Numbered from the stretch's first letter, positions 5,742-64,000 are shown. The stretch is 64,000 nt of DNA from Thermoplasmata archaeon (GCA_023269235.1 JAHFTW010000001.1:107548-171547); one strand, 5' to 3'. A program made the numbers and translations. The notes: generated by a model from the letters alone, not told the origin.

Positions 5742-5792
5742 TCGCGCAAGCGACTGAGTGAACGGTAAGCATTCCTTTCCCCCTTTTCCCAA
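5740..5792 (+). repeat. Surface-gene 3' UTR/terminator repeat, copy 1
   Basis: The segment begins at the stop codon and contains a tcgc-GCAA-gcga mini-hairpin with a GNRA-type tetraloop. It ends in a T-rich pyrimidine tract suited to archaeal termination. It is repeated with a single mismatch at 6672-6724, on the far side of the Doc-like toxin module. Confidence 0.8.
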
Positions 5793-5881
5793 TCTCATCC
5801 CTTTCTGTTTTCTTTGGATTCATGGACCCCAGCGGCGGCTCCAAAACCTTCAAATCCATCCCCTGCCAAGGATGGACTACC

Positions 5882-10689: not shown

Positions 10690-10696
10690 GTCGGTC

Positions 10697-10720
10697 TGTT
10701 CCTCCCTCTTTTTCTACCTC
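10697..10720 (+). terminator. T-rich terminator after the surface-protein gene
   Basis: A pyrimidine stretch with a five-T run lies directly after the stop at 10689 and before the GTG start at 10741. It fits archaeal intrinsic termination. Confidence 0.45.
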
Positions 10721-10740
10721 CATCCGGTGGCTCGGCCATC

Positions 10741-18614: not shown

Positions 18615-18649
18615 GCCGGCAGAACGCCTCCTGAGCGAGGCCCACCCCT

Positions 18650-18680
18650 TCTTCCCTTTTCCCACCCCTGTTTTTATGGA
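18650..18680 (+). promoter_or_regulatory. T-rich terminator followed by TATA-like box of the fni-idsA operon
   Basis: After the stop at 18614 a pyrimidine tract with a T4 run fits a terminator. The immediately following gtttttatgg (18669-18678) lies about 24-33 bases before the GTG at 18702 and fits a TATA box, so a new transcription unit begins here. Confidence 0.5.
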
Positions 18681-58265: not shown

Positions 58266-58318
58266 GCAGTCGTCCTCTTTCCTTCCTTCCAGTCTTCCTT
58301 TCCTTCCTTGTTTTTGGC
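58266..58318 (+). terminator. T-rich terminator tract
   Basis: A long pyrimidine run with repeated CTTTCC/CTTCC blocks, ending in T5, lies after the stop at 58260. It fits archaeal termination. It also lies at the end of the convergent minus-strand gene. Confidence 0.5.
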
Positions 58319-59538: not shown

Positions 59539-59650
59539 GGGCATAACCGTAAATAGCCGCCTCCCTTCGAGCAAAACCAACCACGAACGTCAGGAGAATC
59601 CCTCTGGGTTGTCTCCGCGCCGTTCGGGCTACCACTTGGAGGCACCAAAC
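59539..59650 (+). promoter_or_regulatory. Promoter and leader of the actin-like gene
   Basis: The element ccgtaaatagcc (59547-59558) matches a BRE/TATA core. Unlike most genes here, the start lies ~90 bases further on, leaving a leader of about 65 bases. It ends in a ribosome binding site (ttggagg, ~59636-59642) before the ATG at 59651. A leadered, Shine-Dalgarno-using mRNA suggests strong or regulated translation, as for the surface-layer gene. Confidence 0.6.
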
Positions 59651-60673
59651 ATGGCCAAAGGACTGGACGTCGGCACGATGAACATCATCGCCGCCGAGCG
59701 CCACGGCGACAAGACCACGCTCACCCAGCAGCGCAACTCCTTCGTTGAGATCGAGTACTCCGACGTCGCCGAGAAGATGCTCGCCCGCTCGGACGTTCTC
59801 TACATCAAGAAGGACAACCAGGTGTTCATCGTCGGTGAGGACGCCCTCAACTTCGCGAACATCTTCAACACCGCGACCCGCCGCCCCATGCAGAAGGGCA
59901 TCCTGTCGCGCGACGAGAAGTCGGCCATCCCGATGATCCGCTTGATCATCGAGCGCCTGGTCGGCACCCCGAAGGAGTCCGGCGAGATCCTCTACTACAC
60001 CTCGCCCGCCCGCCCGGCCGACTCCCCCAACCAGGATGTCCTGTACCACCAGAAGACCATCGAGTCCATCCTGCGCAAGCTCGACTACACCCCCCGCGTC
60101 ATCAACGAGGGCATGGCCGTCGTCTACTCCGAGCTCGCCGACAACCAGTTCACCGGCATCGGCGTCTCCTTCGGCGCCGGCATGACCAACATGTGCGTCT
60201 CGCACTACGGTCTCCCGGTCATGACCACCGCGGTCGCCCGCGGCGGCGACTGGATCGACAGCCAGGTCGCTGAGGCCACCGGCCACAGCAAGGACCGCGT
60301 CACCGCGATCAAGGAGCGCGAGTTCGAGATCAACCCTGAGAACCCCCAGGGCGAGGTCCAGAGCGCTCTGACCATCTACTACGACAACCTCGTCACCTAC
60401 GCCATCAACACGCTCAAGCGCGAGATGGCCCGCGCCAAGGTCGAGGAGGGCCTCACCCTGCCCGTCGCCATCACCGGCGGCACCGCCAGCTGCAAGGGCT
60501 TCAAGGACCTCTTCGAGCGCCGCATCTTCGAGGCCAACCTGCCCATCGAGATCTCCAAGGTCAAGATGGCCCGCAGCCCGCTCTACTCGGTTGCCATGGG
60601 CACCCTCGTCGCCGCTCGTGCCGAAGAGGCCGAGACGCTCGAGGAGCTCGTCGCCGTCGACTCGAAGAAGTAA
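59651..60673 (+). CDS. Actin/MreB-fold ATPase (archaeal actin-like protein)
   Basis: The protein has 340 residues. It carries the actin-superfamily nucleotide site: phosphate-1 'KGLDVGTMNIIAA' at the N-terminus, phosphate-2 'TGIGVSFGAGMTNMCV' (~residues 176-190) and the adenosine loop 'LPVAITGGTASCKGF' (~273-287). The connecting 'INEGMAVVYSEL' is typical of MreB/ParM/FtsA-like folds. It lacks the Hsp70 substrate domain and the FtsA 1C domain. It is close in size to MreB and to archaeal actins such as Ta0583, salactin and crenactin. It may form filaments. The downstream four-TM and repeat proteins are candidate membrane anchor and scaffold. It does not sit in an mreBCD, plasmid parM or ethanolamine (eutJ) context. 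Confidence 0.88.
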   Translation: MAKGLDVGTMNIIAAERHGDKTTLTQQRNSFVEIEYSDVAEKMLARSDVLYIKKDNQVFIVGEDALNFANIFNTATRRPMQKGILSRDEKSAIPMIRLIIERLVGTPKESGEILYYTSPARPADSPNQDVLYHQKTIESILRKLDYTPRVINEGMAVVYSELADNQFTGIGVSFGAGMTNMCVSHYGLPVMTTAVARGGDWIDSQVAEATGHSKDRVTAIKEREFEINPENPQGEVQSALTIYYDNLVTYAINTLKREMARAKVEEGLTLPVAITGGTASCKGFKDLFERRIFEANLPIEISKVKMARSPLYSVAMGTLVAARAEEAETLEELVAVDSKK

Positions 60674-60708
60674 AGCGGTCATGAGAATGGCCAGCCGAGG
60701 GATGCACC

Positions 60709-61716
60709 ATGTCTGACGCAGATCGCTATGCGGGCTTGTTCGGCTCGAAGACCTCCAAGGGTCAGCTCCAGGGCGGATTCCTCCTCCTGTCGCTGGGTGC
60801 CCTCTTCGGTCTGGCCGCCCTTATCCTCTTCATCTCCGCCCTGTTCAACACAGGCGACAAGACGCTGTACTACAACCTGATGAAGGCCGGCCTGACGATG
60901 GCCCCCATCGGCCTGGGAGGCATCCTCCTCGGCTTGACGGTGGCCCTGCCCACGAGCGCGTTCCTGCGCGTCGCGAGCTACGTCGGCGGGTTCTTCCTGG
61001 TCGTGTCGGCGCTCCTGTTCTTCTTCCACTACCCCAACAACTTCAATGTGGCCTCCAAGGGCTCGAAGCTCGCGGACTACATGGGTCTCGACGTCCTGGT
61101 GGCCGTCGGCGGATTCGTCCTCATGGCGGCCGCCGCGATCTCCAGCGTCGTGGGCTACTACCTCGGCCGGACCACCGTGGTCAAGGGCGAGGACGAAGCC
61201 GAGGACGACATGTACGGCGCGGGCTACGAGATCCCCGACTGGGTCGTGGAGCGCGACATCGAGTTCGCGATGAAGAAGTACGGCGTCTCGTGGGGCGCGG
61301 ACACGAATGACAACACTATTCGCGTCAACGTCGCCGACACCTTCGCCGGCGCCAAGATCGGCGGCCTCGGCAAGGCCCGCGTGGTCCAGCTCGACGCTGA
61401 CCAGGTGGACCTCGGCGTCGCCGGCCTGACGAAGGTGCGCCCCCAGAAGGGCGGCGCCATCCCGGGCGAGTGGGCCGACGAGGCCACCCGCGCCCTGGTC
61501 GCCTTCCGCAAGCAGAAAGAGTCGAACCCCAAGGCCTTCACGCCGAAGCGCACCTTCTGGCAGAAGGTCGGGGACTTCTTCTCGGGCCGCAACCGCGGCG
61601 GCAAGGCCACCTCGGCCCCCGCCCCGCGCCCGACCCCGGCCAGTGCGCCCCGTGCCAACGGCACGAGCGCCCCGGCCCGCCGCGGCAAGACCATCGTCAT
61701 TGACGACGACAAGTGA
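60709..61716 (+). CDS. Four-TM membrane protein with cytoplasmic C-domain, actin-operon partner
   Basis: The protein has 335 residues. Four hydrophobic segments lie at about 22-44, 57-79, 85-105 and 120-145. A soluble C-terminal domain follows ('YEIPDWVVERDIEFAMKKYGVSWGADTNDNTIRVNVADTFAGAKIGGLGKARVVQLDADQVDLGV', landmarks Y-E-I-P-D-W-V-V-E-R-D-I-E, then I-R-V-N-V-A-D). The last ~60 residues are basic and Pro/Ala-rich, ending 'TIVIDDDK'. It is 35 bases after the actin-like stop with a weak Shine-Dalgarno (gaggg). I do not recognise the family. A membrane receptor or anchor for the actin-like filament is a reasonable hypothesis. Confidence 0.72.
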   Translation: MSDADRYAGLFGSKTSKGQLQGGFLLLSLGALFGLAALILFISALFNTGDKTLYYNLMKAGLTMAPIGLGGILLGLTVALPTSAFLRVASYVGGFFLVVSALLFFFHYPNNFNVASKGSKLADYMGLDVLVAVGGFVLMAAAAISSVVGYYLGRTTVVKGEDEAEDDMYGAGYEIPDWVVERDIEFAMKKYGVSWGADTNDNTIRVNVADTFAGAKIGGLGKARVVQLDADQVDLGVAGLTKVRPQKGGAIPGEWADEATRALVAFRKQKESNPKAFTPKRTFWQKVGDFFSGRNRGGKATSAPAPRPTPASAPRANGTSAPARRGKTIVIDDDK

Positions 61717-61723
61717 GCCTTCG

Positions 61724-61790
61724 AGCCACCCTTCCTCCTTTCTCCTTCCCTCTTCCTTCCTCTTTCCCACCATCCCTTTCCAAATCTCCC
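61724..61790 (+). terminator. Pyrimidine/T-rich tract between the TM protein and the repeat protein genes
   Basis: About 65 bases of almost pure C/T with repeated CTTCC/CTTTC blocks follow the stop at 61716. It can act as an archaeal terminator, possibly partial, leaving the downstream repeat-protein gene at reduced or separate transcription. Confidence 0.45.
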
Positions 61791-61802
61791 GGGCGGTCCC
61801 AG

Positions 61803-64000
61803 ATGAGCAACTCCCCTTCCGACGCACAGAAGCGCGCGGCCCGCATGGCCGCCTTCAGCGCCAAAGTCAAGGACGAGGAGGATCAAGGCGTCGCCGTCCG
61901 CTCCTTCAACGAAGCCAAGGAGGGCTCGTCCGGCACGAAGACTTTCGACCCGAAGACGGGCCAGGTCCGTTCCGGCTCCGCCGGCGGAGCCGCGCCCGCC
62001 CCCAAGGCCAACGTCAAGACGGTCTCGGACGACGAGCTGTTCGCTGAGATCGACGCCGCCGTCGCGGCCGAGGAGAAGAAGTCCGGCAAGACCGTCACCC
62101 TCCCCTCCACGCCGGCCCCGGAGCCCGCCGCGCCCAAGCCCGCCACGGCCCCAAGTTTCTCGGCCAAGCGCCTCGCCGCCATGGCCAACTTCTCCATCGA
62201 CAAGCCGGAATCCCGCCCCGCCACCTCCCCCGGCGAGGCGGCCGCCGCCCAGCTCAGTGACCTGGGCGAGGTCGAAGTCAGCAAGCCCGCCATCGGCAAG
62301 GCCAAGCCGCTCGAGACCACGGAGGCGACCTTCGAGCTCAACGCCCCGACCCCGAAGCCCGCGCCTCGCATGGCCTCGGCCAAGGACGAGGAGTTTACCC
62401 TCGAGGCCCGCAAGCCCTCCGCCCGCGCCTCGGCCATCGACGCCGAGGCCGGCGATGTCCAGGTCAACGCGCCCAAGCCGCACCACATCCCCGTCGGCCA
62501 CGGCAAGTCCGGCGCCGGCGAGTTCTCCGTCCAGAAGGACGCCGCCCCCGCCTCCGCGCCGGCCAAGATTCGCAGCCCGTCCGAGGACGAGTTCACGGTC
62601 AAGCTCGACGCCGAGGCCAAGGACGTCGAGGGCATTGTCGCCCCCGCCGACACGGAGTATGCCGTCAAGTCCGACGCCCAGAGCAAGGACCTCGCCGCCT
62701 CCGCCGACCAGAAGGTGCAGGATGTCCTGGGCCAAACCCCCATCGAGCTGCCGCACAAGATGAGCAAGCCGGCGCCCGCCCCCCTCCCCAAGTCGCCCGC
62801 CGAGATGCGCCGCGACGCCGAGCGCCGCACGGTCGCCCCGCTCCCCGACTTCGGCGCGCAGCGCCCCAACGTCCGCCGCGACGCGGAGCCCAAGCACCTC
62901 CCCAAGATGCACAGCGCGGGGGACGATGCCGTGGACGCGCGCCGCGACGCGGCGCCAAAGGCCCTCCCCAAGATGCACAGCGCCGGCGACGATGCCGTCA
63001 ACGCCCGCCACGACGCGGCCCCGAAAGCCATGCCCCGTCTGCAGAACCCCGCCGACGCCAAGGTGGACGCGCGCCGCGACGCCAACGAGCCGAAGCACCT
63101 CCCCAAGATGGCGAACGCCGCCGATCGTGAGTCGTTCGTCGCCCGCCTGGACAAGGAGGCCCGTGAGGACCGCCCTCGGATGCTCAACCCCTCCGAGACT
63201 GGCACGCTCGATGCCCGCCAGGACCGCCAGCACGGCAAGCCCATCGGCGCCATCCGCAGCCCCGCCGACACGATGCGCCCGGACGTCCACATGGACCGCC
63301 AGGCCGCGCGCGAGTCGCCCCGCCTGCGCAGCCCCGGCGACGTCGGCGGCTTCGAGGCCAAGCTGGACAAAGAGTCCCGCGGCGGCATTGGCCGCATCCG
63401 TTCCCCTGCCGATTCGGCCTTCGAGACGAAGCAGGACGCACAGGCGAAGGCCTTGCCGCGCATGCGGAATGCCGCCGACGCAGACTCCTTCGAGACGCAC
63501 CAGGACGCGCAGGCGAAGGCCCTGCCGCGCATGCGGAATGCCGCCGACGCAGACTCCTTCGAGACCCACCGCGACGCGCAGGCCAAGGCCTTGCCGCGCA
63601 TGCGGAATGCCGCCGACGCGGACGCGTACGAGACGAAGCAGGACGCCCAGGCCAAGGTCCTTCCGCGCATGCGGAACGCCGCCGACGCGGACGCGTACGA
63701 GACGCATCAGGACGCCCAGGCGAAGCAGCTTCCCCGGATGCGCAACGCCGCGGACGCCGACACCTACGAGGCGAAGCTTGCCTGGCAGCAGAAGAAGGTC
63801 ACCGGCATCCGCAGCGCGGCCGACGCGGAAGCGTACGAGACCCAGCTGGATCGCGAGGACCGCGACGCGCCCGACTTGCACAACCCAGGCCAGACGGAGT
63901 TCGAGGTCAAGATGGAGCACGAGTCCGTCTGGACCACCCCGGTCCGCCGCGACATCGACGCCGAGTCCATCGCGGGCAAGAAGGGCAAGAGCGCCAAGTA
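61803..64000 (+). CDS. Long Cys-free repeat protein with 23-residue tandem units (3' stop cut by window edge)
   Basis: About 732 residues are visible; the last two bases (ta) are probably the start of the stop codon after 'KKGKSAK'. It starts 'MSNSPSDAQKRAARMAAFSAKVKDEED' with no signal peptide or TM. The first ~320 residues are low-complexity Ala/Pro/Lys/Glu with short recurring 'S-x-x-D-E-[FL]-x-x' motifs. From about residue 330 on, degenerate units 'L-P-[RK]-[ML]-x-[NS]-[AP]-[AG]-D…D/E-x-x-x-D' appear. The best seven (63408-63887) are near-perfect 23-residue copies of 'A-D-A-D-[SA]-[FY]-E-T-[HK]-Q-D-A-Q-A-K-x-L-P-R-M-R-N-A'. It is likely an elongated or disordered scaffold. It follows the actin-like and four-TM genes on the same strand. 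Confidence 0.8.
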   Translation, partial: MSNSPSDAQKRAARMAAFSAKVKDEEDQGVAVRSFNEAKEGSSGTKTFDPKTGQVRSGSAGGAAPAPKANVKTVSDDELFAEIDAAVAAEEKKSGKTVTLPSTPAPEPAAPKPATAPSFSAKRLAAMANFSIDKPESRPATSPGEAAAAQLSDLGEVEVSKPAIGKAKPLETTEATFELNAPTPKPAPRMASAKDEEFTLEARKPSARASAIDAEAGDVQVNAPKPHHIPVGHGKSGAGEFSVQKDAAPASAPAKIRSPSEDEFTVKLDAEAKDVEGIVAPADTEYAVKSDAQSKDLAASADQKVQDVLGQTPIELPHKMSKPAPAPLPKSPAEMRRDAERRTVAPLPDFGAQRPNVRRDAEPKHLPKMHSAGDDAVDARRDAAPKALPKMHSAGDDAVNARHDAAPKAMPRLQNPADAKVDARRDANEPKHLPKMANAADRESFVARLDKEAREDRPRMLNPSETGTLDARQDRQHGKPIGAIRSPADTMRPDVHMDRQAARESPRLRSPGDVGGFEAKLDKESRGGIGRIRSPADSAFETKQDAQAKALPRMRNAADADSFETHQDAQAKALPRMRNAADADSFETHRDAQAKALPRMRNAADADAYETKQDAQAKVLPRMRNAADADAYETHQDAQAKQLPRMRNAADADTYEAKLAWQQKKVTGIRSAADAEAYETQLDREDRDAPDLHNPGQTEFEVKMEHESVWTTPVRRDIDAESIAGKKGKSAK
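63408..63887 (+). repeat. Tandem 69-bp coding repeats (seven units)
   Basis: Unit boundaries taken at the Ala before the Asp fall at 63408, 63474, 63543, 63612, 63681, 63750 and 63819. Spacings are 66 then five times 69 bases, so the frame is kept. Units 2 and 3 are almost identical at the DNA level, which points to recent duplication, while the last two have diverged. Older, degenerate copies extend back to about 62790. Confidence 0.9.

Follow-up and report, generated by a model that had tools for sequence, protein, structure and literature searches.

A volactin-family actin and its co-occurring four-TM protein at a Thermoplasmata locus: a candidate two-gene membrane module

What kind of actin is encoded near the end of a 64,000-nucleotide stretch of DNA from a Thermoplasmata archaeon (the whole stretch that was analysed, hereafter the window), and does it come with a membrane partner of its own? 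An initial annotation had read three same-strand genes here as an actin-fold ATPase, a four-TM partner, and an elongated repeat protein, together making up a membrane scaffold. Three ORFs, P0001 (340 aa), P0002 (335 aa), and P0003 (732 aa), were indeed found on one strand, the last of them running from 61803 to 64001 so that the final base of its stop codon lies 1 base beyond the window end (Table 1). All three are coding, because of the pattern of their GC fractions at codon positions 1/2/3 (0.58/0.40/0.96 for P0001, 0.63/0.46/0.93 for P0002, and 0.70/0.51/0.93 for P0003). A Shine-Dalgarno-like motif had also been reported ahead of the actin gene and is present there. On the 3' side of P0003, leuC/leuD-like genes and others follow, and judged from their sequences a cytoskeletal link is not evident among them.

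Table 1. Features of the locus and C/T-rich tracts of the window, numbered from the first base of the window.
Feature	Position	Strand	Basis
Shine-Dalgarno-like GGAGG	59638..59642	+	8 bases 5' of the P0001 ATG at 59651; from sequence
P0001, volactin-family actin, 340 aa	59651..60673	+	PF25216; Foldseek; profile against PDB; nucleotide-binding loops
P0002, candidate four-TM volactin partner, 335 aa	60709..61716	+	PF23600; adjacent to volactin in 19/19 own-phylum genomes with both
P0002 four-TM part, residues 24-147	60778..61149	+	Hydropathy and positive-inside counts; Pfam DUF7139 spans residues 5-151
P0002 C-terminal domain, predicted cytoplasmic, volactin-partner-specific	61225..61587	+	Profile A1, E = 2.7e-31 (partly by construction, since the 20 rows of A1 include P0002)
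57-nt pyrimidine tract, probable transcription terminator after P0002	61725..61781	+	Tract statistics in the window
P0003, apparently lineage-specific repeat protein, 732 aa	61803..64000	+	22-24-residue period; codon pattern
C/T-rich tracts after same-strand stops	2354-2392, 5772-5796, 10695-10721, 18641-18675, 58273-58309, 61725-61781

The actin gene and its family

P0001 matched the Pfam family Volactin (PF25216) along the whole profile (1-321 of 321), with 399.9 bits against a cut-off of 35 (E = 1e-119), and on this match it is a member of the known family volactin, that of the Haloferax shape actin VolA. Like VolA of Haloferax volcanii (HVO_2015), it belongs to the family over its full length and has an actin fold. 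The actin/MreB fold with three nucleotide-binding loops that had been noted at the outset was confirmed: the nearest solved folds in Foldseek were MreB (best), MamK, FtsA, EutJ, and PilM, the AlphaFold model having been built from a three-sequence alignment with a pLDDT of 59 and residues 1-89 poor, and the loops LDVGTMN, FGAGMTN, and ITGGT were invariant in a 3-row alignment with relatives.

Other actin identities were weighed and failed on their scores. Salactin (PF25229, NF053533) is likewise an archaeal actin-like protein and shows weak similarity over the last 85 residues of P0001, but P0001 lies far under the family cut-off (14.6 bits against 27.1; 17.9 against 400 for a second model). 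FtsA gave 22.2 bits against a cut-off of 31.8, and 23 against 175.85 for a second model; EutJ and PilM were dismissed in the same way. Pfam searched up to E = 1 gave no MreB_Mbl match to P0001, and the sole MreB_Mbl match in the source genome was a 636-aa frame on a different contig. The magnetosome actin MamK was the best match of P0001 among solved structures in a sequence-profile search of the PDB (E = 2e-7), but the MamK score was 34.7 against a cut-off of 400, and no magnetosome gene was seen among the called neighbours. The earlier view had set the system apart from mreBCD, ParMRC, EutJ, and FtsA contexts, and had named a EutJ-like actin as a refuting outcome. The MreB, FtsA, and EutJ identities fail on score, and the protein falls into a known family, volactin.

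Few archaeal actins have a known role in cell biology, and volactin is one of them. Its filaments in Haloferax volcanii are dynamic, run through the cytoplasm, and contact the membrane with their tips, and the protein promotes the change from rod to disk; the filaments shrink rapidly ahead of division, for which the authors propose unknown regulators, and the binding factors were termed as-yet unknown (PMC10869688). The published VolA work names no partner. One could suppose that the actin of the window segregates DNA or positions cargo, in the manner of ParM or salactin, with the membrane protein serving as a site on the envelope. Volactin dynamics have been compared to those of ParM (PMC10869688), and salactin, whose synteny is poor, acts in DNA partitioning in Halobacterium (PMC10746226). 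Nevertheless, this reading seems scarcely probable, since P0001 is no salactin by score, no partition genes were seen among the called neighbours, and Haloferax volactin affects shape.

In a tree of the family, P0001 grouped with the cellular and not with the phage-type forms. Every volactin match in the sample from the window's own phylum was weaker than the haloarchaeal matches; haloarchaea therefore appear to be absent from that sample, and the window's volactin appears, from these comparisons, to sit in another archaeal phylum than the haloarchaeal ones.

A four-TM protein whose C-terminal domain follows volactin

P0002 had been described as a four-TM protein with a cytoplasmic domain, and both features were borne out. 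It has TM segments at residues 24-42, 62-80, 88-106, and 129-147, and this four-TM part matched DUF7139 (PF23600) with 57 bits against a cut-off of 30. An actin fold for which MreB is the best structural match, next to a membrane partner, recalls MreB with MreC/MreD or RodZ; however, P0002 matched DUF7139 alone in Pfam, and not MreC, MreD, or RodZ. Across 32 homologues, the TM2-TM3 loop held 70 Lys/Arg versus 13 Asp/Glu and the remaining two loops were acidic, which by the positive-inside rule places both termini of the partner in the cytoplasm. Unlike the Pfam DUF7139 model, P0002 and the volactin-linked forms bear an extra C-terminal cytoplasmic domain of ~120 residues (hereafter the C-domain), which carries a conserved acidic helix motif, TDEEIxRDIExA, and gave no significant match in Pfam or the PDB. 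We do not claim that P0002 has a further membrane anchor in the form of an amphipathic tail (hydrophobic moment only 0.6 sd over shuffles on average), and the AlphaFold model of P0002, from a two-row alignment (pLDDT 44), was too poor for use.

All genomes were searched, irrespective of volactin, with a profile restricted to the C-domain (A1, 20 rows). Volactin and partner occurred together in 19 of the 390 genomes scanned in the window's own phylum, and in all 19 the two genes sat directly side by side, separated by 5-205 bp. The partner lay upstream of volactin in 13, downstream in 4 (window included), and was divergent in 2; since the arrangement varies and the adjacency persists, the linkage is not simply that of a frozen DNA stretch. 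Besides the 19 paired genomes, the C-domain was found in three incomplete ones. The contigs stop shortly past the partner in two of these (G202 and G205), and in the third (G258, 63% complete) at least 1.3 kb of further contig follows, with volactin not found. A single own-phylum genome (G012) has a strong volactin match without a C-domain, and its volactin is of the phage type.

Two further observations concern this phylum. One genome (G211) carries a second, frame-broken volactin copy ~2.4 kb 3' of the intact one (L036, 12561-13438). In many genomes of family f24 (L055, L056, and others) there is a different actin-like protein with weak similarity to volactin (E about 1e-4 to 1e-8), possibly representing another archaeal actin family.

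Of 146 haloarchaeal genomes, 86 had both a strong volactin and a strong C-domain match, and the other 60 had neither (Fisher 2e-42, a value that ignores shared ancestry). On a proxy tree covering 30 of them, the volactin trait, hence the pair, changed at least 3-5 times. The partner was directly upstream of volactin in 70 genomes, unlike in the window, where it is downstream. In the remaining 16 the two genes were unlinked, with two of these volactins lying at a contig start; as such genomes retain both, co-retention is not merely linkage. DUF7139 in the broad sense was present in 144/146 haloarchaeal genomes, and the 30 unlinked copies examined consisted of the TM part only, without the C-domain, which marks the C-domain as the part that tracks volactin. 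The volactin and partner trees had their major clades in common, with a distance correlation of 0.92 and the partner evolving faster. In one haloarchaeal genome (G450; L182, 5187-5627), from which the intact pair is gone, an ORF has the partner's first TM at its N-terminus and the volactin end at its C-terminus, apparently the scar left when a deletion ran, in frame, through what had been an operon.

Among named haloarchaeal loci, RR_RS02760-RR_RS02765 on Haloarcula marismortui pNG700 match both families and are both annotated as hypothetical, while DVR14_24145-24150 of Natrinema thermotolerans includes a candidate partner by position only, annotated as a permease. For the Haloferax volcanii control genome there are family matches only, with adjacency not seen. 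The neighbourhood search that had been suggested finds a strongly conserved pairing of actin and four-TM protein in two archaeal phyla, and nearly all scanned genomes with a cellular volactin have the four-TM protein as well. One might instead imagine an old gene pair that shared regulation keeps together, the products never being in physical contact. We consider this very unlikely, given that 16 haloarchaeal genomes keep both genes unlinked, that losses are joint, and that among DUF7139 proteins solely those with the C-domain track volactin.

Haloarchaea also contain a second protein type of ~800-1300 aa, with a volactin domain, a long coiled coil, and a C-terminal TM segment (L177, 4671-8360; L178, 4179-6578; L180, 5591-8494), which by its predicted domain order is an actin with a built-in tether. 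In another genome (G019; L186, 3209-4330) a DUF7139 TM region is preceded by an N-terminal half that resembles a coiled coil, and volactin is absent.

The repeat protein and the pyrimidine tracts

Unlike Haloferax volactin, the window's volactin, in what appears to be another phylum, is followed by an extra gene for a repeat protein. As initially described, P0003 is a Cys-free protein of 732 residues; it is rich in Ala, Asp, Pro, and Lys, and has at least 16 repeat units of 22-24 residues that are clear from about residue 258, the N-terminal third being only loosely repetitive. Between near-identical repeats, changes at codon positions 1/2/3 numbered 13/12/46, and this third-position excess indicates that a long antisense ORF is not a real frame. 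No homologue was detectable in the order's other three genomes, the repeat profile gave no other match at any locus tested, and no family model was matched above its cut-off.

P0002 and P0003 are 86 bp apart, with the 57-nt pyrimidine tract between them. The window contains 10 such tracts where 0.4 would be expected by mononucleotide shuffling, and 6 of the 10 begin 6-31 bases past a same-strand stop codon. From this excess and the position after stops we read the tracts as probable terminators of this GC-rich archaeon. In the only other genome of the same family (G149), an ORF with different, 20-residue repeats starts inside the partner's stop codon. Homology of this ORF to P0003 was rejected, as the P0003 repeat profile misses it, while several of its shuffles are found among the chance matches.

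These data bear on the three-part scaffold first envisaged, in which filament, anchor, and linker would act together, with the repeat protein as the elongated linker. The part of that proposal concerning an actin with a dedicated four-TM partner stands, while the repeat protein drops out as a conserved third member. P0003 is genuinely coding and close by on the same strand, and the repeat ORF at the partner's stop codon in the related genome could be taken in favour of a linker. However, with P0003 homologues missing elsewhere in the order and from the repeat-profile search, no such repeat protein seen beside volactin at other loci, and a terminator-like tract after P0002, we hold a linker role to be improbable. 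P0003 would instead be a lineage-specific addition whose connection to the pair is uncertain.

A possible tie between filament and membrane

We think it likely that the locus holds a two-gene volactin module in which the partner, consisting of DUF7139 and the C-domain, binds or anchors filaments at the membrane. ATP-binding volactin would form dynamic filaments, as the Haloferax literature describes, and the obligate four-TM partner would sit in the membrane, where its C-domain would most likely bind volactin. By anchoring, nucleating, or capping filament ends there, the partner could explain the tip-membrane contacts of Haloferax volactin, and the likely job in the uncultured euryarchaeal lineage of the window would be in cell shape or cell organisation. 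The volactin family itself is already known, but, as far as we could find, the two-protein module with a DUF7139 and C-domain protein is apparently undescribed: in a literature search that left out preprints and most subscription journals, we found neither a mention of DUF7139 nor a pairing of volactin with a membrane partner.

With a distribution matching that of volactin in 86/146 haloarchaeal genomes, a mostly adjacent gene, and a cytoplasmic domain of its own, the partner is a testable candidate for the membrane tie. Archaeal actin-membrane contact would thereby become a question for routine experiment, through a single partner gene in Haloferax, and the volactin-partner system would extend to a second archaeal phylum. 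A wider generalisation, which we put at somewhat less than an even chance, is that every cellular volactin works in an obligate pair with a membrane protein. In that case the DUF7139 and C-domain protein would be the missing filament-tip receptor, a type of actin anchor related neither to MreC/RodZ nor to FtsA. The pair would have passed between archaeal phyla as a unit, by inheritance or exchange, and some lineages would have added repeat or coiled-coil extensions.

The partner might alternatively be a membrane sensor or regulator, whose C-domain controls nucleation, capping, or disassembly of volactin in response to tension, curvature, or potential. Its four-TM body, which is small and has short loops on the outside, and the acidic helix motif would suit such a task, as would the fast pre-division shrinkage of Haloferax filaments and the regulators suggested there (PMC10869688), and volactin has been put forward as a mechanosensing cytoskeleton (PMC7617734). 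However, no sensory domain is indicated by the sequence, and we judge this reading rather unlikely; the roles of anchor and regulator are perhaps inseparable, and sequence does not tell them apart.

Volactin-family actins with 31-42% identity were also found in 67 viral contigs (IMG/VR, L192-L258), some of >500 kb, and in the GenBank "uncultured phage" records LR745208.1 and LR756511.1 (485 and 595 kb). In the tree the viral volactins separate from the cellular ones (support 100), and no DUF7139 was found within about 4 kb of them in their contigs, so that the fold can operate without the partner. Their phage neighbours gave no PHROGs match and mostly sub-threshold Pfam matches. A gene near the viral volactins resembles a tail-sheath protein, for which family searches gave no confirmation, and the neighbourhood may tentatively be read as a tail module.
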